DNA of 61,441 bases from Candidatus Poribacteria bacterium. Its GTDB lineage: Bacteria > Poribacteria > WGA-4E > WGA-3G. The stretch spans positions 1 to 61,441 of the forward strand of contig JAJEAG010000091.1 in assembly GCA_022824265.1 (NCBI GenBank), given 5' to 3'. The position numbers and the translations under genes were made by a program. How positions within the stretch are numbered: position 1 is the stretch's first letter; each line of letters opens with the position of its first letter. Shown here one piece after another: positions 6,115 to 61,187 of the stretch. The notes beneath the pieces are model-generated. The model did not search any database, had not been told where the DNA came from, and was given only the letters and a program-made list of their open reading frames with translations.

Positions 6115-8037
6115 ATGAAAAAAACAATAGGTTTCTACTTAATGACACTATTCTTTGTGTCATTGATTTACAATCCTGTCACCTTTGCACAAGATAGTCG
6201 TCAATGGGCTTTACCAAATGGTGCAATAACTCGCATAGGAAAGGGTGGTATCACCGATCTACAGTATTCCCCCGATGGTAAATTTCTTGCTGTAGCAAGC
6301 AGTATTGGGGTATGGCTATATGAAACAACAACATATCAGGAGAAATCTTTACTTATTGGTAATTCATCATGGCTAACATGTATAGCCTTCAATCCCAATG
6401 GAAATACGATTGCATGTGGTAGTATTGACAGTACAATACATTTATGGAATGTTTCAACGGGTGAACACTTGATGAGATTGAGAGGACATACATCAAGTGT
6501 TTATGGTATTGATTTCAGTCCCGACGGAAAAACAATCGCATCTGGCAGCAGTGATGGTTCAGTACGTTTGTGGAATGCGGAAAACGGAGAACACAAAAAA
6601 ACACTCTCTGGTCAGTCAGTATGGGTGTGGAACGTTGACTTCAGTCCCGATGGAAATACCATTGTTCATGGAAATGGAGATGGCACTGTGCATTTCTGGG
6701 ATGCCAACTCTGGTGAACACCAACATCTGTATATTGCACATCCGTGGGATTCTAAAATGGCAGTTTTCAGTCCTGATGGTAAGACAATCGCAAGTATTAG
6801 TGGCGATAGTACAACCCGTTTATGGGACATTGACACACAGTTAACTAGGGTGTTGCTTATCGGACATACTGAAAGCGTTACTGATATTGCCTACAGTATA
6901 ATAGAAAAAATAGTTGCAACTGCAAGTGCAGATACGACTATCCGTGTCTGGGATGCCAATACTGGTGAACATCAGAAGACTCTTAGAGGACATACGAGAG
7001 CAGTCAACTGCCTGGCAATTAGTCCTGATGGAGAAACAATTGCTACAGGTAGTCGGGACGGAACAATCCGTCTGTGGAATACTTCTACTGGTGATCACAC
7101 GCATACAATCTCTGAACATTACGACTCAATCTACAGTATTATGTATAGTCCTGATGGTGGTATACTTGCTACCGGCAGTGAAGACGGAAATATACGGTTT
7201 TGGGACGCAAAGACAACAAATGAAAGAATGACACTCACTGGACATACTCGTCCAATTAGTAATATTTCATTCAGTCATAATGGTCAGATGCTGGTAAGCG
7301 GAGATAAAGAAGGTAGCATACGTCTTTGGAACACCAATTCGGGAAAAACGATGAAATCATTTGGAGGACATACTGGTGATGTCCGAACAGTACGCCTTTC
7401 TCTCGATGGAAAGAAAGTCATCAGCGGGAGTTGGGACGCGACTATTCGGTTATGGGATGTAAATCTTGGGATACAAAACAGAATGTTAACTGGACACATA
7501 GAAGAGATATATACAATAGCATTAAGTCCCGATGGAAATACAATTGTGAGTAGCGGTGCTGACAGAAGCATCCGATTATGGAATTCTGTTACAGGAACAA
7601 ACGAAAGAACACTGACCGAGGATATTGATTTAATAGATGCTATTGCGTTTAGTCCAGATGGAACAACTTTCCTTAGTGGAAGTAGAAATGGAACTATTAG
7701 TATATGGAATGTTTCTAAAAGCACCCGTATTGTATCGTTCAAAAACCAACACCCGTCTGATGGTCAAAGACGATATGCAGAAGGTGTGGTGTGCATCCAA
7801 TTTAGTCCTGATGGACATGTGTTTGCCAGTGGTGGTAGAAATGGGAGCATTCGTTTATGGAATGCTGAGAACGGAGAACACATCAAAACGTTATACAATC
7901 GGAACATGATTGGCGACATAGTGGGTCATACAAGTAAGATTGATTCTCTTTCCTTTAGTCCAGACGGTCAATTCCTTGCAAGTGGAAGTAGTGACGGTAC
8001 CGTTCTCCTGTGGAAACTTGATGCAACATCACAATGA
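6115..8037 (+). CDS. Secreted WD40-repeat beta-propeller protein
   Basis: This 640-residue protein starts with a signal peptide (MKKTIGFYLM, cleavage likely near TFA-Q), so it acts outside the cytoplasm. The rest is about 14 WD40 repeats, each with a SPDGxTIASGS turn and a (I/V)RLWxxxxG strand, enough for two seven-bladed propellers. After the signal comes ALPNGAITRIGKGGI, nearly identical to GLPEGAIARLGKGGI in the two WD40 proteins at 56-61 kb. That makes the three paralogues and suggests a conserved N-terminal blade. WD40 proteins are binding scaffolds; the partner is unknown. No clear Shine-Dalgarno precedes the ATG. Confidence 0.9.
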   Translation: MKKTIGFYLMTLFFVSLIYNPVTFAQDSRQWALPNGAITRIGKGGITDLQYSPDGKFLAVASSIGVWLYETTTYQEKSLLIGNSSWLTCIAFNPNGNTIACGSIDSTIHLWNVSTGEHLMRLRGHTSSVYGIDFSPDGKTIASGSSDGSVRLWNAENGEHKKTLSGQSVWVWNVDFSPDGNTIVHGNGDGTVHFWDANSGEHQHLYIAHPWDSKMAVFSPDGKTIASISGDSTTRLWDIDTQLTRVLLIGHTESVTDIAYSIIEKIVATASADTTIRVWDANTGEHQKTLRGHTRAVNCLAISPDGETIATGSRDGTIRLWNTSTGDHTHTISEHYDSIYSIMYSPDGGILATGSEDGNIRFWDAKTTNERMTLTGHTRPISNISFSHNGQMLVSGDKEGSIRLWNTNSGKTMKSFGGHTGDVRTVRLSLDGKKVISGSWDATIRLWDVNLGIQNRMLTGHIEEIYTIALSPDGNTIVSSGADRSIRLWNSVTGTNERTLTEDIDLIDAIAFSPDGTTFLSGSRNGTISIWNVSKSTRIVSFKNQHPSDGQRRYAEGVVCIQFSPDGHVFASGGRNGSIRLWNAENGEHIKTLYNRNMIGDIVGHTSKIDSLSFSPDGQFLASGSSDGTVLLWKLDATSQ

Positions 8038-33735: not shown

Positions 33736-33929
33736 ATGCCATACAAAACACATAAAATCACATTAACTCCAACTTCTAAGCAAAGGCGTTGGTTTGCCCA
33801 GCAATGCGGTTATGCGTGATTTGCATATAACCGAGCGTTAGCAGATTTTAAGACAGGCTTAGCTCAAGACACCTTCCAATCTTGGCAAATAACAATCATT
33901 CTACAAAACAACAAAACAACTTCAATTTG
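33736..33929 (+). pseudogene. TnpB N-terminal remnant (IS200/IS605 family)
   Basis: From the ATG at 33736 the frame reads MPYKTHKITLTPTSKQ, WFAQQCGYA, a TGA, then FAYNRALADFKTG. This is the typical start of TnpB, where the TGA replaces the Arg of the usual YARFAYN (CGA to TGA). After SWQ the similarity ends and the frame closes, so only about 60 codons remain. The upstream 33660-33735 may hold the left end of the element. Confidence 0.75.
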
Positions 33930-33955
33930 ACAAATTGGTTGTATGATGGTAAAAT
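33927..33955 (+). promoter_or_regulatory. Sigma70-like promoter
   Basis: TTGACA (33927-33932), a 17-base spacer and TAAAAT (33950-33955) lie about 80 bases upstream of the GGGP-synthase-like gene. The -35 box falls at the edge of the tnpB remnant. Confidence 0.55.
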
Positions 33956-34034
33956 TGTTTAGTTTTATATAGATAGGATAGGTATAGCATTTAACCAGAA
34001 TATTCGGAATTAGCAGACTAAGGAATATAGGCAT

Positions 34035-34781
34035 TTGGCATCAAAATGTGTTTTACAATATCTACGTGAGGTACTTGAGAAGCAAAATGCAGGTTATCTC
34101 GTTCTAATTGATCCTGAAAAATGTGAGATAGATAGATGCCCTAAACTTGCACGAGAAATAGAACGAGCAGGTGTAGATGCTATCTTACTCGGTGGGAGTT
34201 TATTGACATTAGACCTGCATCCCTTTGCTGAAACACTAAAAACAGAAACTGATCTACCAATCATCCTTTTCCCAGGGGATTCAATGCATCTAACTGCCCA
34301 TGCAGATGCAATCCTGTATACAAGTCTTATAAGTGGAAGAAATCCAAATTACCTTATAGGTGAACAAGTAAAAGCAGCACCATGGATACAGCGATATGGC
34401 TTGGAGCCTATCCCCACAGGATACATTCTCATTGATGGTGGTAACCGATCTGCAGTTGAATTTATGAGTGGAACTGCCCCTATTCCCCGAGAAAAACCCG
34501 ATATAGCAGCCCCGCACGCACTTGCTGCACAATATCTTGGGATGCAGTTAGTCTATTTAGAAGCAGGAAGTGGTGCCGAGTACCCTGTGCCTAATCTAAT
34601 GATAAAATCCGTAAAATCTCAGATTGACATCCCATTAATAGTTGGGGGTGGTATCAGGGATCCAGAATGTGCAGCTGAAAAAGTAAGGTTTGGTGCTGAT
34701 TTCATAGTTACAGGTAACATACTTGAAAAATGCGGTTCCTTTGAGTTAATGAAACAGTTTGCCGATGCTGTTCATGGTTAA
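34035..34781 (+). CDS. Geranylgeranylglyceryl phosphate synthase (PcrB/GGGPS) family protein
   Basis: The family joins sn-glycerol-1-phosphate to a polyprenyl diphosphate, the first committed step of archaeal ether lipids; bacterial members make related compounds. The 248-residue TIM barrel has LVLIDPEKCEIDRCP, ILLGGSLLT, PIILFPGDSMHLTAHADAIL, TGYILIDGGNRSAVEFMSG, VYLEAGSGAEYPVP, LIVGGGIRDPECA and VTGNILEK. Glycerol-phosphate and phosphate-binding loops are intact, and its length and motifs resemble the archaeal/Bacteroidetes group. The start is TTG with AAGGA upstream. Chaperone genes grpE and dnaJ follow. Confidence 0.88.
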   Translation: MASKCVLQYLREVLEKQNAGYLVLIDPEKCEIDRCPKLAREIERAGVDAILLGGSLLTLDLHPFAETLKTETDLPIILFPGDSMHLTAHADAILYTSLISGRNPNYLIGEQVKAAPWIQRYGLEPIPTGYILIDGGNRSAVEFMSGTAPIPREKPDIAAPHALAAQYLGMQLVYLEAGSGAEYPVPNLMIKSVKSQIDIPLIVGGGIRDPECAAEKVRFGADFIVTGNILEKCGSFELMKQFADAVHG

Positions 34782-34854: not shown

Positions 34855-35604
34855 ATGTCTGAAAATAATGAGGTAGGTATAGAAATCAATAAAGAAAAGA
34901 ATGACAAAGAAAAAGAGAAAAATAAAAAACCAGAATTTCTAATTGATGAATCTGAAGAGGAAACGGATACGTCTCCTGAAACAGAGACAACAGAAGAAGA
35001 ACGTACAATAGAAACCGTTGAAGCAGAACTTGAAGAACTTAAAGAAGACTTTAAAAAACAACTCAAAGCAGTAGCAGAGTCTGAACGAGAACAGTATCAA
35101 GAGGAACGTGATCGTTTGCTTAGAACTGCTGCAGAAGCAGAGAATTCGAAAAAACGTATAGAAGCAAATGCTGAGAAACAACTAAAGTTCGCTAACAGGA
35201 ATATCTTAGAAGGTCTTATCCCGGTGTTGGATAGTCTTGAAGCAGCATTAAAAAGTGTTGCAGAGAAAGCGGAAGTAAGTGAAGCTTCCCCAGAATTCTC
35301 TAACTTCAGTGAAGGTGTAGCAATGGTGCATAAGCAACTTATGGATGTGTTGAAAATATATGGACTTACCCCAATTCAAGCGATAGGTGAACAGTTTGAC
35401 CCCAATCAACATGAAGCAGTCATCGCAATAGAATCGGACGAAGTCGCTGAAGGTAATGTCATTGAGGAGTATAGAAGTGGTTATCAATTGCACGACCAAG
35501 TACTACGTGCAGCACAAGTAGTAGTTTCCAAAGGAAAGGTTGAGAAAGATGTCGAATCTGAGGAGACTGACGAACAACAAGATGAGAACTCCACCGAACA
35601 ATAG
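34855..35604 (+). CDS. grpE: Nucleotide exchange factor GrpE
   Basis: GrpE releases ADP from DnaK. The 249-residue protein has a long, highly charged Glu/Lys-rich N-terminal tail (about 1-80), a coiled coil (ELKEDFKKQLKAVAES), the conserved FANRNILEGLIPVLDSLEAA, and the C-terminal beta domain with GEQFDPNQHEAVIA, YRSGYQLHDQVLRAAQVVVS. The acidic tails make it longer than E. coli GrpE. It is followed 34 bases later by dnaJ; dnaK is not in the window. Confidence 0.95.
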   Translation: MSENNEVGIEINKEKNDKEKEKNKKPEFLIDESEEETDTSPETETTEEERTIETVEAELEELKEDFKKQLKAVAESEREQYQEERDRLLRTAAEAENSKKRIEANAEKQLKFANRNILEGLIPVLDSLEAALKSVAEKAEVSEASPEFSNFSEGVAMVHKQLMDVLKIYGLTPIQAIGEQFDPNQHEAVIAIESDEVAEGNVIEEYRSGYQLHDQVLRAAQVVVSKGKVEKDVESEETDEQQDENSTEQ

Positions 35605-35638: not shown

Positions 35639-36754
35639 ATGCAGCAAAAACGGGATTACTACGACATCTTAGATGTCACTCGAGATGCTGATGAGAACGA
35701 GATTAAAAAGGCATATCGAAAGTTAGCAATCAAATATCATCCAGACAAAAATCCAGGTGATAAAGAAGCCGAAGATAAATTCAAAGAAGCCACTGAAGCC
35801 TATGATGTCCTAAGAACACCTGAGAAACGTCAACGTTATGATCAATACGGACATGCAGGTCTTGAGGGAATCAGTTCTGACTTTGGATTTGGTATAAACT
35901 TGGACGATATTCTTAATGATGTTTTTGGAGATGTATTCGGTGGATTTAGTAGAACCCAACAACGCAGACCTAAGCAAGGGCGCAGCCTACAAACTAACGT
36001 TGAAATTACACTTGAGGATGCATACAACGGTAAAGAAATTTCATTTGATGTTCCACGCATAGAATCATGTTCTGATTGTAGTGGCAGTGGGGCAGAAACT
36101 GGTTCAACGGTAGACACATGTCCACAATGTCATGGTCGAGGTCAAGTCACACAATCACAAGGATTCTTCACGATGTCCCGAACATGTCCACGTTGTCGTG
36201 GAGAAGGAGAAATTATCCAGAATCCATGTCGTAATTGCAACGGTCAAGGACGGATAAGAGTAAATCATGAGATCAAAATCAGTATTGACAAGGGAGTTGT
36301 CAACGGGTTTGAATATCGTTTACGCGGAGAAGGAGAAGCTGGAACTCTTGGGGGACCTCCCGGTGACCTTCTTGTTGTTGTACACATTAGACCACACGAA
36401 AGATTTAGTCGTGATGGTCACGACTTGATTACTTCCGCGAAAATCTCATTCGTTCAAGCTGCACTTGGTAGTAGTATAGAAATTAACGGTATTGACGGAG
36501 TCCACAAATTAGATATACCTGCTGGTACACAATATGGAGATCGTGTGCGTATCCATGGAAAAGGTATGCCAAGATATAGAAGTAGCAGTTTCGGCGATCT
36601 TGTCGTACAAGTCGCAATCGAAACACCGAGGAAACTCAATCAAGAACAACGTAGTCTCTTAGAGAAATTTGCTGAGTCTCACGGTGACTCACCAGAAACT
36701 GGACACAGTGGGTTCTGGGATAAACTATTTCGTTTTAACGATGATAATAAATAG
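35639..36754 (+). CDS. dnaJ: Chaperone DnaJ
   Basis: A 371-residue type I J protein. The J domain carries HPD at 34-36 ([10 protein letters not shown]). It is followed by a Gly/Phe-rich linker, the zinc domain with four CxxCxGxG-type repeats ([32 protein letters not shown]) between about 140 and 205, and the substrate-binding C domains ([10 protein letters not shown]). It stimulates DnaK and delivers unfolded clients. The length matches the family. Confidence 0.96.
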
Positions 36755-36795: not shown

Positions 36796-37683
36796 ATGCA
36801 TTGGGCACAGATAACCGTTACCACAACTTTGGAGGCATCTGAAGCCGTTGCAAACTTTCTTATAGAAATGGATGCTTGTGGTGTTGAACATAAAGATGTG
36901 TCTGACACAAGTACTTCTCTTATCGCTTATTATCCACTTGATGACCGAGTCAACACAAGATTAAACAAACTGCGAAATTTCCTTACCAAACTCCCATCAT
37001 GGGGTTTACAAACACATCCTACGAAAATAGACCTAAAACGAATTGAGCCTGAAGAGTGGACTGAAACGTGGAAGACTGAAATTCAACCCCAAAGAATAGG
37101 CAACAACCTTCTTATCGTTCCAACATGGCATAAAATCTCAACTGATGATACGACTGTTCAAATCAGAATTGATCCTGGGATGGCATTTGGTACAGGTTAT
37201 CACCCAACTACCCGTTTATCTTTGAAGATGTTGGAGCAAACAATCAAACCGAATTATCAAATTGCTGATATTGGAACTGGTTCAGGTATACTTGCGATTG
37301 CAGCGGTATTGCTTGGAGCAAAACATGTTGATGCGATTGAAATTGATGAAACTGCGATTCCTGTAGCTGAGAACAACTTCAGGATAAATGGTGTGGAAGA
37401 ATGTATTAGTTTATTCCAAGGAGATGGTATAAAGTCGCTAACTGGAAAATACGATATCATAGTTGGGAATATACTAACTAAAGCGATTATTCCGATAATT
37501 CCGTATTGTCCATCGCGTTTAAAACCCGATGGACATTTAATTTTTTCTGGTATTTTAGAGACAGAACTTGATGATGTTAAGGAGGTTTTGATTGAGAATG
37601 GATTGGAATGTGATGAGGTGACGCGTGAGGCAGAAAATGATATTATGTGGATTGCTCTTAGAGCAAAGCTTGCTAAACCTTAA
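36796..37683 (+). CDS. prmA: Ribosomal protein L11 methyltransferase PrmA
   Basis: PrmA methylates ribosomal protein L11 using SAM. The 295-residue protein has an N-terminal L11-recognition part (about 1-90), DPGMAFGTGYHPTTRLSL, the SAM motif IADIGTGSGILAIAAVLLGA, the acid in DAIEIDETAI, and VGNILTKAI. It follows dnaJ, a common bacterial order. No clear Shine-Dalgarno is visible. Confidence 0.93.
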   Translation: MHWAQITVTTTLEASEAVANFLIEMDACGVEHKDVSDTSTSLIAYYPLDDRVNTRLNKLRNFLTKLPSWGLQTHPTKIDLKRIEPEEWTETWKTEIQPQRIGNNLLIVPTWHKISTDDTTVQIRIDPGMAFGTGYHPTTRLSLKMLEQTIKPNYQIADIGTGSGILAIAAVLLGAKHVDAIEIDETAIPVAENNFRINGVEECISLFQGDGIKSLTGKYDIIVGNILTKAIIPIIPYCPSRLKPDGHLIFSGILETELDDVKEVLIENGLECDEVTREAENDIMWIALRAKLAKP

Positions 37684-56462: not shown

Positions 56463-58523
56463 ATGAACAAAAAATATACTTTTACATTAATAATCTCGCT
56501 AAGTCTCGTTCTACTATCAACAATTTATGCACAAGACAACACACAAGTTGGTCTACCTGAAGGTGCAATTGCCCGACTGGGCAAAGGTGGGATTAGTGTA
56601 ATGCGATTCTCTCCAGATGGATCCCGTCTTGCTGTAGGAACATCTGTCGGAGTATGGCTATACGATGTGAAAACCGGTGATGCAAAGGCACTAATCCCTT
56701 CAAGAACAAGACAAGTAGATAAGAAAATCAAAAATATATATGGTGAACATGATTGGATTGCGGATTCAGTATCCTATGTGAACTGTTTAGCATTTTCCCC
56801 AGATAATCGTATACTTGCAGCAGGTGAAATGGATAACTTTGCTGTTCAATTATGGGACCTTGAGACGAGTATGGAAAAATCAACACTTCCAGCAACCCAT
56901 CAACAGGACAAGGCTTATGCAATAGCATTTTCAGATGATGGCAAAACCCTAATTACACCACATTATTTTGGAAATATAATTCATTGGGATGTTGAGACTG
57001 GTGACAGAAGTGCCAACTTGAATAAATCTCCAAGTCATTCCTATGATAGGATAGCAATTACCAAAGATGGAAAAACCTTTGTGAGTGGAGATCCAAAGGA
57101 CGGAGAAATCCGTTTATGGGATGCACATACAGGTCGTCAACTTACTCTCTTTAAAGCAGTAACCCCATTTTCCGCTCTCTCACAACATGAACCCAAACCA
57201 CAGAAAGGGGTTAAAGTACTTGCATTGTCACCGGATGGTAAAACAGTCGCAAGTGCACATGATGACAGCACTGTTCGTCTGTGGAATATCGCATCCAGTA
57301 CGGAAACTGCAACTTTAAGGGGACATAAGGAACGGATCAACTCGATTGCATTCTCTCCTGACAGCAAGTTTCTTGTTAGTGGCAGTAATGATGAAACAAT
57401 CCTATTGTGGGATGTTAAAAAAAGAAAAATAATAACAACACTTACAGGACATAATGGAAGTGTCCAGGCAGTTACGTTCTCTCCGAATGGAGAAATCCTC
57501 GCAAGTGGCAGCACTGATGGTACTATCCGATTTTGGGATGTAAAAACAAAGCAGGAAACGTCCATCTTTGCATCCGGACATACGACAGACATTATATCGG
57601 TGGCATTTACAGAGAATGATAAAATGTTAGCTACAGCTGTGGAAAATGGTACAGTTGAAATTTGGAATTTAAAAACCAGAAAATTGCTACCAAAACCGTC
57701 AATCGCATATCACGATAAAACAGAAGCATCCGCATTTTCCCAAGATGCCAGAATGTTTGTCAGCCATGGTTCAGATTCTATCGTGCGTTCTAATGAAGGT
57801 GGTATAAGTACATCTTGGAAACCAAAGGATGAAACGCGAATATGGGTACTACCAACTGGTGATGAACTTCTGACACTTCAGGAAAATGCTGAATCTTATA
57901 CATTCTCTCCTGATAATAAACTATTTGCCACCTATATCGATTCTCCTGATATAAAAGGTATTCGTATCTTAGAAACAGACACATGGAAGGAATTATTATT
58001 CATCGAAAGAAGAATACCATTTTCCGATAATTTGCTTTTCTCACCGAACAGCAAACTTCTTGTTTCGTACGGCACTCATACTAAAACAATGGTGTGGGAT
58101 GTTACAACACAGACAGAAATCACACCACCGAATATCAAGCATGCTTCAGGCTTAGCGTTCTCACCCGATAGCACCATCCTTGCAAATGGAAATCATGAAG
58201 AGATTGTATTGTGGACTATTACACCAGCTGGATTGCAGGAATTAGGACCAATTAACAATAGCAGAAGAGCGTTCAGCAAAGGAATGGTTTTCTCTCCTGA
58301 TGGAAAAACGTTGATAGATTCTGCATCTGGAGGTAGGAATGATGTTATCCGATTATGGGATGTTGAGACTGGACTTAAATTAGACACTTTTTCAGGACAC
58401 GCATGGTCAATTCCATCGCTTGTATTTTCACACGATGGTAAAACACTCGTAAGCGGAAGTGGAGATGGAACAGTGCTGCTATGGGATTGGGAGAAAATAT
58501 TAAAAAAGGTAGGTAAAGAATAA
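56463..58523 (+). CDS. Secreted WD40-repeat beta-propeller protein
   Basis: A 686-residue protein with a signal peptide (MNKKYTFTLI, cleavage near YA-QD) followed by VGLPEGAIARLGKGGISVMR, shared with the WD40 proteins at 6115 and 59221. It has about 13 WD40 repeats with SPDGxxLAxGxxD turns and (V/I)xLWD strands, some degenerate. It probably forms two propellers in the periplasm or at the surface. AAAGGAT precedes the ATG. The lipoprotein gene overlaps its stop codon (TAATG), so the two are coupled. Confidence 0.9.
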   Translation: MNKKYTFTLIISLSLVLLSTIYAQDNTQVGLPEGAIARLGKGGISVMRFSPDGSRLAVGTSVGVWLYDVKTGDAKALIPSRTRQVDKKIKNIYGEHDWIADSVSYVNCLAFSPDNRILAAGEMDNFAVQLWDLETSMEKSTLPATHQQDKAYAIAFSDDGKTLITPHYFGNIIHWDVETGDRSANLNKSPSHSYDRIAITKDGKTFVSGDPKDGEIRLWDAHTGRQLTLFKAVTPFSALSQHEPKPQKGVKVLALSPDGKTVASAHDDSTVRLWNIASSTETATLRGHKERINSIAFSPDSKFLVSGSNDETILLWDVKKRKIITTLTGHNGSVQAVTFSPNGEILASGSTDGTIRFWDVKTKQETSIFASGHTTDIISVAFTENDKMLATAVENGTVEIWNLKTRKLLPKPSIAYHDKTEASAFSQDARMFVSHGSDSIVRSNEGGISTSWKPKDETRIWVLPTGDELLTLQENAESYTFSPDNKLFATYIDSPDIKGIRILETDTWKELLFIERRIPFSDNLLFSPNSKLLVSYGTHTKTMVWDVTTQTEITPPNIKHASGLAFSPDSTILANGNHEEIVLWTITPAGLQELGPINNSRRAFSKGMVFSPDGKTLIDSASGGRNDVIRLWDVETGLKLDTFSGHAWSIPSLVFSHDGKTLVSGSGDGTVLLWDWEKILKKVGKE

Positions 58524-59220: not shown

Positions 59221-61187
59221 ATGAAAACTAAAATCCTCAATATCATCACGGTTCTATTGATGTCGTGTATATCCACATACCTTTATGCACAAAACAACAC
59301 ACAAGTCGGTCTACCTGAAGGCGCAATCGCACGTCTTGGTAAGGGTGGTATCAATATTATGCGTTTCTCACCTGATGGAGCACATCTTGCAGTGGGAACT
59401 GATGTCGGGGTTTGGTTATACGATGTGCCTGATGGTAAAGAAACCGCTCTGTTCACTGGTCAAGGTGGACAAGTAAATGCACTTGCCTTTTCAAATGATG
59501 GAAAAATGCTTGCAAGCAGTGGTGAAGACAGTCCTGTAATACAGTTGTGGAATATGGACACACGAAACAAACTTAATTCAATTGGATTAACTCAAAGACG
59601 CGACTCAATCGCATCATTAGCATTCCATGGATCCACACTAATAAGTCTGGAAAGAAGAGGTAAAGTTATATATTGGGACGCAAGTACTGGTAAAGAACTA
59701 TCGGAGTTTGGAAATGTAGTACAATTCAATGCAGCAGCATTTTCAGATAATGGAAGTCTCTTTGCAATTGGAGCAAATGATAGCAAAATTCATCTGTGGG
59801 ACGCTACATCTGGAAGCCGAAAAAGAACAATTATTGGACATGCAAGCCTATTTAGAAAACAGGACAAAGATATCCTTGCATTGGCATTCTCACCTGATGG
59901 TGAAATACTGGCAAGTGGCAGTGAAGACAAAACTGTACAATTGTGGAATACACAGACTTACACAAAGATAGGCACACTCAGAAAACATGACGAATGGATA
60001 ACCGCAATTGCATTCTCAGATGATATAAGGACACTTGCAACTGGCGATACAAGCAGCGAAATAAAACTTTGGGATATAGCAACCAAAAAGGTACGACTCT
60101 AAAGGGACATAAGAATACAATTAACGCGCTAACATTTGCACCAGATAGTATGTCTGAATATAGCGGATGCCTTGCAAGCGGAAGTGCAGACGGAACTATT
60201 CGGCTTTGGAATCCATATACTGGCAAAGAACTGATTACATTGACTACAGGACATGCCGAATGGATAAAAACTATAGCATTTTCTGAAAATGATACTTTCT
60301 TAGCAAGTGCGGTATATAACGGTGTAGTAGAAAAATGGAATCTTACGACTTTTAAAAAAATAGATTCCTTTACTGCCGGTCATAGCGATATTATTGATAT
60401 TATAACGTTGTCATCCGATGCAAAGTTCTTTGCTGGTAATAGCGGTGATGCTATGGTAGTGTTCAATTCATTAGGATATGGAACCCGTATTAGAGGAGGA
60501 GGTAATAGAGACCTTCAAGTATGGGATCTGTCTACAGGCAAAGAATTTCCCGTACCTGCTATGCAGCGCGGTCCAAGAACTGCAGCACCTATATTTTCTC
60601 CTGATAACAACCTACTGGCAGCGAGTGTCTTCCGCACAATTCGTGTGTGGCATAGAGAATCTGGCACGGAACTATTTCAACTAAATTCGCATACTCCGTT
60701 GTCCAGAGGACAGATGCTGTTTTCACCTGATGGACAAAAGTTCGCTGCACTTCCATCTCATAACAAGCTTCAAGTATGGGATGTAACAACACAGAACAAC
60801 ATCACTCCTTCCAACATGAAACCAGCAGAAGTATTTGCCATTTCCCCAGACAATTCCACCATTGCTACCGCAAGTCCTGTTGATATGCACTTATGGCATT
60901 TGGACGCAGCACCAGAAGATGTACACACCCCGATAGATGCAAAATTATTGGGTATAGACAAATCATTGGTTTTTTCACCAGATGGAAAAACCCTTGTCGG
61001 CACATCACGGAGGAATCTAAATTTGATTGATGTTGAAACAGGAATTCAATTGACGCTTCCCACAGGACATACGGAACCAATTGAAGCAATCGTATTTTCT
61101 CATGATGGAAAAACACTTGCCACAGCAAGCGTTGACGGGACAGTCTTACTTTGGGATTGGAATATAATATCAATTAAAAAGAATTAG
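59221..61187 (+). pseudogene. Secreted WD40-repeat protein gene interrupted by a frameshift
   Basis: Two frames together make one paralogue of the WD40 gene at 56463. The first (59221-60102) carries the signal peptide, VGLPEGAIARLGKGGINIMR and about six repeats. It closes at TAA just after DIATKKV. The second resumes in the -1 frame (GTTLKGHKNTINALTFAPDS) and runs to 61187. The break is at a run of five A (60085-60089); one more A would restore a single frame of about 655 residues. This may be a real mutation, a phase-variable tract or an assembly error. Both halves are still well conserved, so any loss is recent. Confidence 0.8.

Follow-up and report, generated by a model that had tools for sequence, protein, structure and literature searches.

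Poribacteria probably synthesise archaeol-like lipids for their membranes, and one order of the phylum appears to saturate them by means of a selenocysteine (Sec)-dependent version of the reductase GGR; we put the probability of this reading at roughly 70%. It starts from a geranylgeranylglyceryl phosphate synthase (GGGPS) gene in the window, i.e. the 61,441-nucleotide stretch of DNA analysed here, which is contig C77 of a 4.45-Mb, 96.7% complete MAG (G000) of a sponge-associated Candidatus Poribacteria bacterium. In the proposed pathway, GGGPS would join geranylgeranyl diphosphate (GGPP) to glycerol phosphate in the first committed step of archaeal-type ether lipid synthesis, a UbiA-family DGGGPS encoded on contig C19 would then attach the second C20 chain, the flavin-dependent GGR encoded on contig C50 would saturate the chains, and bacterial CdsA together with CDP-alcohol transferases would provide the head groups. 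Within the order of the window's bacterium, the catalytic Cys of GGR is replaced by a UGA codon accompanied by a SECIS-like hairpin and presumably read as Sec, which would make the reductase a selenoenzyme. We regard this scheme as a whole, from a true GGGPS through DGGGPS and Sec-GGR to CdsA and the CDP-alcohol transferases, as quite likely; the enzyme activities, the chain length of the substrates, the G1P or G3P chirality, Sec insertion and the membrane lipids themselves are predictions from sequence.

The GGGPS gene and its surroundings comprise the following features:

34035..34781, + strand, GGGPS gene (group II) with a TTG start that recurs in close relatives, identified by ORF call, profile matches, structure matches and tree
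34020..34024, + strand, putative ribosome-binding site AAGGA, likewise present in close relatives
34855..35604, + strand, grpE, a conserved downstream neighbour outside the lipid pathway
35639..36754, + strand, dnaJ, a conserved downstream neighbour
36796..37683, + strand, prmA, a conserved downstream neighbour

The preliminary description had recognised the hallmark loops of the GGGPS family in this region, and the ORF of 248 aa indeed contains all of them (LIDPEK, LLGGS, ILFPGD, PTGYILID, YLEAGSG, VGGGIRDP and VTGN). By its sequence, the encoded protein is a group II GGGPS, set apart from Bacillus-type PcrB. It matches PcrB PF01884 with 159 bits (cut-off 23.9), NF003198 with 288 bits (cut-off 247) and TIGR01769 phosphoglycerol geranylgeranyltransferase, the GGGPS equivalog, with 222 bits (cut-off 161.6), while the closest solved structures are the GGGPS enzymes 4mm1 (E 3e-53) and 4jej (E 8e-51). 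In a tree with just four reference sequences, in which two Bacillus-type PcrB proteins form the outgroup and the long branch of 4jej makes its exact placement unsure, the window protein falls with the GGGPS enzymes. TIGR01769, PF01884 and the tree thus agree with the archaeal-type identity that had been proposed. That the gene might encode a heptaprenylglyceryl phosphate synthase (PcrB) deserves next to no weight: the two enzymes have the Pfam family in common, but the heptaprenyl model NF003197 yields 26 bits against a HepGPS equivalog cut-off of 260, identity in our own alignment is 26–29% to PcrB versus 42–43% to each of 4mm1 and 4jej, and the tree separates the window protein from PcrB with 100/100 support. 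A profile search of the whole genome returned this protein as the sole PF01884 match, and among the relatives returned, the 41 with a named genome are all from Candidatus Poribacteria.

The placement of grpE, dnaJ and prmA beside the gene was also correctly described, with all three downstream, an arrangement found in many poribacterial genomes. The intergenic sequence 5′ of the GGGPS gene carries the decayed N-terminus of an IS200/IS605 OrfB with an in-frame stop (33736-33930; HTH_OrfB_IS605, 31.9 bits). Elsewhere in the window, three related WD40-like repeat proteins (6115-8037, 56463-58523 and 59221-61187) have in common an N-terminal motif, AITRIGKGGI or AIARLGKGGI, that comes after a signal-peptide-like stretch.

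Homologues of the downstream ether-lipid enzymes DGGGPS and GGR, whose absence would have spoken against the initial proposal, are encoded in the same genome. Four UbiA-family proteins score above the cut-off there, and one of them (L080, G000:C19:45404-46267) is a DGGGPS homologue, with NF009521 (geranylgeranylglycerol-phosphate geranylgeranyltransferase) as its best NCBIfam model and a DGGGPS, PDB 6m31, as its best solved structure (E 3e-39). Its gene comes after lpxD and overlaps an SpoU-type RNA methyltransferase gene. The paralogues on C41 (MqnP-like), C89 (CtaB) and C14 (PRK12884-like) were rejected as DGGGPS candidates, since they fit better elsewhere or score lower. The GGR on C50 exceeds the cut-off of TIGR02032 (234 bits; cut-off 158.8), contains a GGR_cat domain (88 bits) and matches the archaeal digeranylgeranylglycerophospholipid reductase PDB 3oz2 over nearly its full length (E 3e-77). 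Neither enzyme reaches the cut-off of its NCBIfam model (DGGGPS, 216.6 versus an equivalog cut-off of 296 bits with NF009521; GGR, 291.5 versus 780 bits with NF041160), so homology does not fix their exact substrates. A second FAD reductase family, represented at G000:C96:760-1755 and by counterparts in most genomes, reaches about 124–154 bits with TIGR02032; it was not accepted as canonical GGR because these scores are below the cut-off and because it also occurs in genomes without GGGPS.

The glycerol-1-phosphate (G1P) dehydrogenase that the preliminary description had suggested looking for was not found in the window's genome, either by a PF13685 profile search, whose four matches above the cut-off proved to be AroB and three iron alcohol dehydrogenases, or with NF002022 (no match at E 1e-12), so that the backbone could have either G1P or G3P chirality. 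A PF01864 profile search of this genome likewise found no archaeal CarS; it returned one match of 27.8 bits (cut-off 22) and one below the cut-off, both from genes that resemble the phosphatidate cytidylyltransferase gene cdsA while remaining under the CdsA cut-off. With neither G1P dehydrogenase nor archaeal CarS found, the canonical archaeal pathway is incomplete in this genome. Two polyprenyl synthases (L175 and L176) are encoded, and both score below the cut-off of every listed chain-length model. Directly beside a CdsA-like gene on contig C74 lies a CDP-alcohol phosphatidyltransferase gene (L178:233-835), the product of which bears a weak likeness to archaetidylinositol phosphate synthase (66.8 bits; cut-off 180). 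A mixed membrane is possible in view of lpxD, the cdsA-like genes and the literature.

Across 85 poribacterial genomes, GGGPS is present in 73 and DGGGPS in 74. Both genes occur together in 72, whereas one genome has GGGPS only, two have DGGGPS only and ten have neither (Fisher p 2.3e-10, a value to be taken as a guide only, as the test treats related genomes as independent). Left out of these counts were weak PF01884 matches in G006, G022 and G071, which cover only the C-terminal part and are HisF-like there, and weak UbiA matches (28% identity) in G020 and G022. Where both genes occur, they lie no more than 10 kb apart on a single contig in 60 of 72 genomes. DGGGPS is then invariably upstream of GGGPS and on the same strand, at a median gap of 1.4 kb that is often filled by GGR outside the window's family and by the SpoU gene inside it. 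The window's genome has GGGPS, DGGGPS and GGR dispersed over contigs C77, C19 and C50, and the cluster is also split in its nearest relatives, G040 and G043; since these two have the same arrangement, the IS605 remnant was rejected as the cause of the split. That the core genes are kept or lost together and are mostly clustered strengthens the case for a working pathway.

The distribution of GGR is patchier. It exceeds the family cut-off in 23 genomes, all of which have DGGGPS, and its co-occurrence with GGGPS by itself is not significant (p 0.17). In the window's family, canonical GGR above the cut-off is present in only seven of 59 genomes, so that saturation is not universal; most genomes of the family have kept GGGPS and DGGGPS without it, and the lipids of most members may therefore stay unsaturated or be reduced by a different enzyme. 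Two of the seven GGR copies are broken, one by a frameshift (L236, in G035) and one by an extra in-frame TAG (L242, in G069), as would be expected if GGR is still being lost from this family. Genus g9 offers a natural loss pair, as G018–G022 (88–97% complete) are without GGGPS, DGGGPS and canonical GGR together and G023 has all three. G1P dehydrogenase-like proteins were detected in other genera, at about 175 bits in G003 and G004 and at 95–138 bits in many genomes of genus g4, none reaching the NF002022 cut-off of 413. The g4 loci, such as L050:1372-2406, code for a divergent protein some 350 aa long, scoring about 130 bits with NF002022, that might supply G1P in that genus.

These patterns bear on whether GGGPS and DGGGPS instead serve some other isoprenoid product than bulk membrane lipid, for example a minor glycolipid or, as in Bacillus, a prenylglycerol that has been dephosphorylated, or else act in the turnover of archaeal lipids acquired in the sponge. 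Such a role would suit the failure to find a G1P dehydrogenase in the window's genome and the absence of canonical GGR from most members of its family; moreover, the ether lipid that PcrB produces in Bacillus is a minor one and is not known to have a role in the membrane, and for bacteria without G1P dehydrogenase a catabolic function has been proposed (PMC6431249). Yet, DGGGPS and GGR match enzymes of the archaeal anabolic route and belong to one cluster that is lost as a unit, and, according to PMC7852524, the Cloacimonetes pair of enzymes yields archaeol lipids in E. coli even though the MAGs have no G1P dehydrogenase of their own. On balance, a product other than bulk membrane lipid seems unlikely, albeit less so than any of the other alternatives considered here.

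The proposed synthesis of archaeol-like lipids acquires an unusual feature in the reductase step. The GGR gene on C50 contains an in-frame TGA at codon position 46 (EKRQEIGTPVR-TGA-AEGIS). In an alignment with 3oz2 and 3atq, this codon falls on their Cys, which is reportedly shared by all archaeal GGRs and indispensable in S. acidocaldarius (PMC10821996). TGA is found at this site (PVR[U]AEG) in 15 genomes of the window's order, i.e. its own genome and 14 others, and TGT or TGC in eight genomes outside the order. In a tree, all Sec sequences group together (100/98) and are nested within the Cys sequences, which fits a single change from Cys to Sec. Starting 13 bases after the TGA, a hairpin with a 7-bp stem and a 3-base loop opening with an invariant G can be drawn, and in the 14 distinct TGA sequences 96.9% of its cells are paired, compared to 28.6% in the corresponding region of the Cys genes. 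Double changes occupy 14 cells versus 5.6 in shuffles, the covariation score was reached by none of 500 shuffles, and slid controls collapse. As single-sequence folding z-scores are mostly modest (about −1 for the window's genome), it is this covariation that carries the case for the hairpin. The genome also encodes a tRNA-Sec with anticodon TCA, adjoining selB on C34. Taken together, the reductase on C50 appears to be a selenoprotein GGR, with Sec predicted at the catalytic position.

An open reading frame alone leaves the inserted residue unspecified, and TGA could in principle be read as another amino acid, be it genome-wide or through local recoding. This is very improbable, given that TGA still terminates the GGR gene in G015 and G016, that tRNA-Sec and selB are present in the genome, that the hairpin is limited to the TGA genes and that the homologous residue is Cys. 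Pseudogene decay or faulty assembly is an even less credible source of the TGA. The family does include the two truly broken copies in G035 and G069, but 15 independent assemblies have the identical codon in place of the catalytic Cys, the sequences form a strongly supported clade, 13 of the 15 TGA genes continue for 351 codons of conserved length, and the covarying hairpin accompanies selB and tRNA-Sec. Purifying selection persists downstream of the TGA, where pN/pS amounts to 0.05–0.22 over 336 codons, a magnitude similar to that on the 5′ side.

The Sec-containing reductase is encoded outside the window and hence lay beyond the view of the preliminary description. Standard ORF calling begins after the TGA and gives a truncated protein of 345 aa (L198:7006-8043, on C50), so that a Sec-GGR is easily overlooked or misannotated. 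No description of GGR as a selenoprotein and no paper combining Poribacteria and selenoproteins was encountered in the literature searched, which excluded subscription journals, preprints and supplements, and GGR is not named in the deep-Sep main text. Sec-GGR looks new.

If the Sec assignment holds, selenium would enter isoprenoid lipid synthesis at the catalytic position of a reductase, tying selenium directly to the synthesis of membrane lipids. More generally, the poribacterial genes extend the natural candidates for mixed membranes to a phylum of sponge-associated bacteria.

A bacterial GGGPS is known in kind, as GGGPS and DGGGPS have already been published for FCB-group and related bacteria (PMC7852524 and PMC6431249), and PcrB of Bacillus has the PF01884 fold in common with the window protein, even though the tree and the NCBIfam scores assign the latter to another subfamily. 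The closest parallel is the mixed-membrane pathway of Candidatus Cloacimonetes, in which, according to PMC7852524, bacterial GGGPS and DGGGPS are co-localised, GGR is present, a bacterial CdsA takes the place of CarS and no G1P dehydrogenase was found in the MAGs either. The poribacterial system differs in that its cluster often includes GGR, which in one order appears to contain Sec, and in that the window's own genome has GGGPS, DGGGPS and GGR dispersed. In the same source, Villanueva et al. state that bacterial co-localisation seems restricted to Cloacimonetes, and Poribacteria are not named in its main text; the poribacterial GGGPS/DGGGPS cluster looks new.

With respect to Sec, GGR resembles known bacterial selenoproteins (PMC13188914) in its in-frame UGA at a redox Cys, the existence of Cys homologues, the presence of selB and tRNA-Sec, and a hairpin directly downstream with a G opening the loop; unlike these, it lies outside the 2026 inventory of 119 prokaryotic selenoprotein families and subfamilies, to which it would add a further family. 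Finally, the poribacterial GGR has the FAD fold, the GGR_cat domain and the catalytic Cys position in common with the archaeal digeranylgeranylglycerophospholipid reductases of Thermoplasma (3oz2) and S. acidocaldarius (3atq), from which it differs, in the window's order, by the replacement of this Cys with a UGA codon and a SECIS-like hairpin. Provided that Sec is inserted there, the Sec and Cys forms of GGR would constitute a natural pair for testing the role of this debated catalytic residue.
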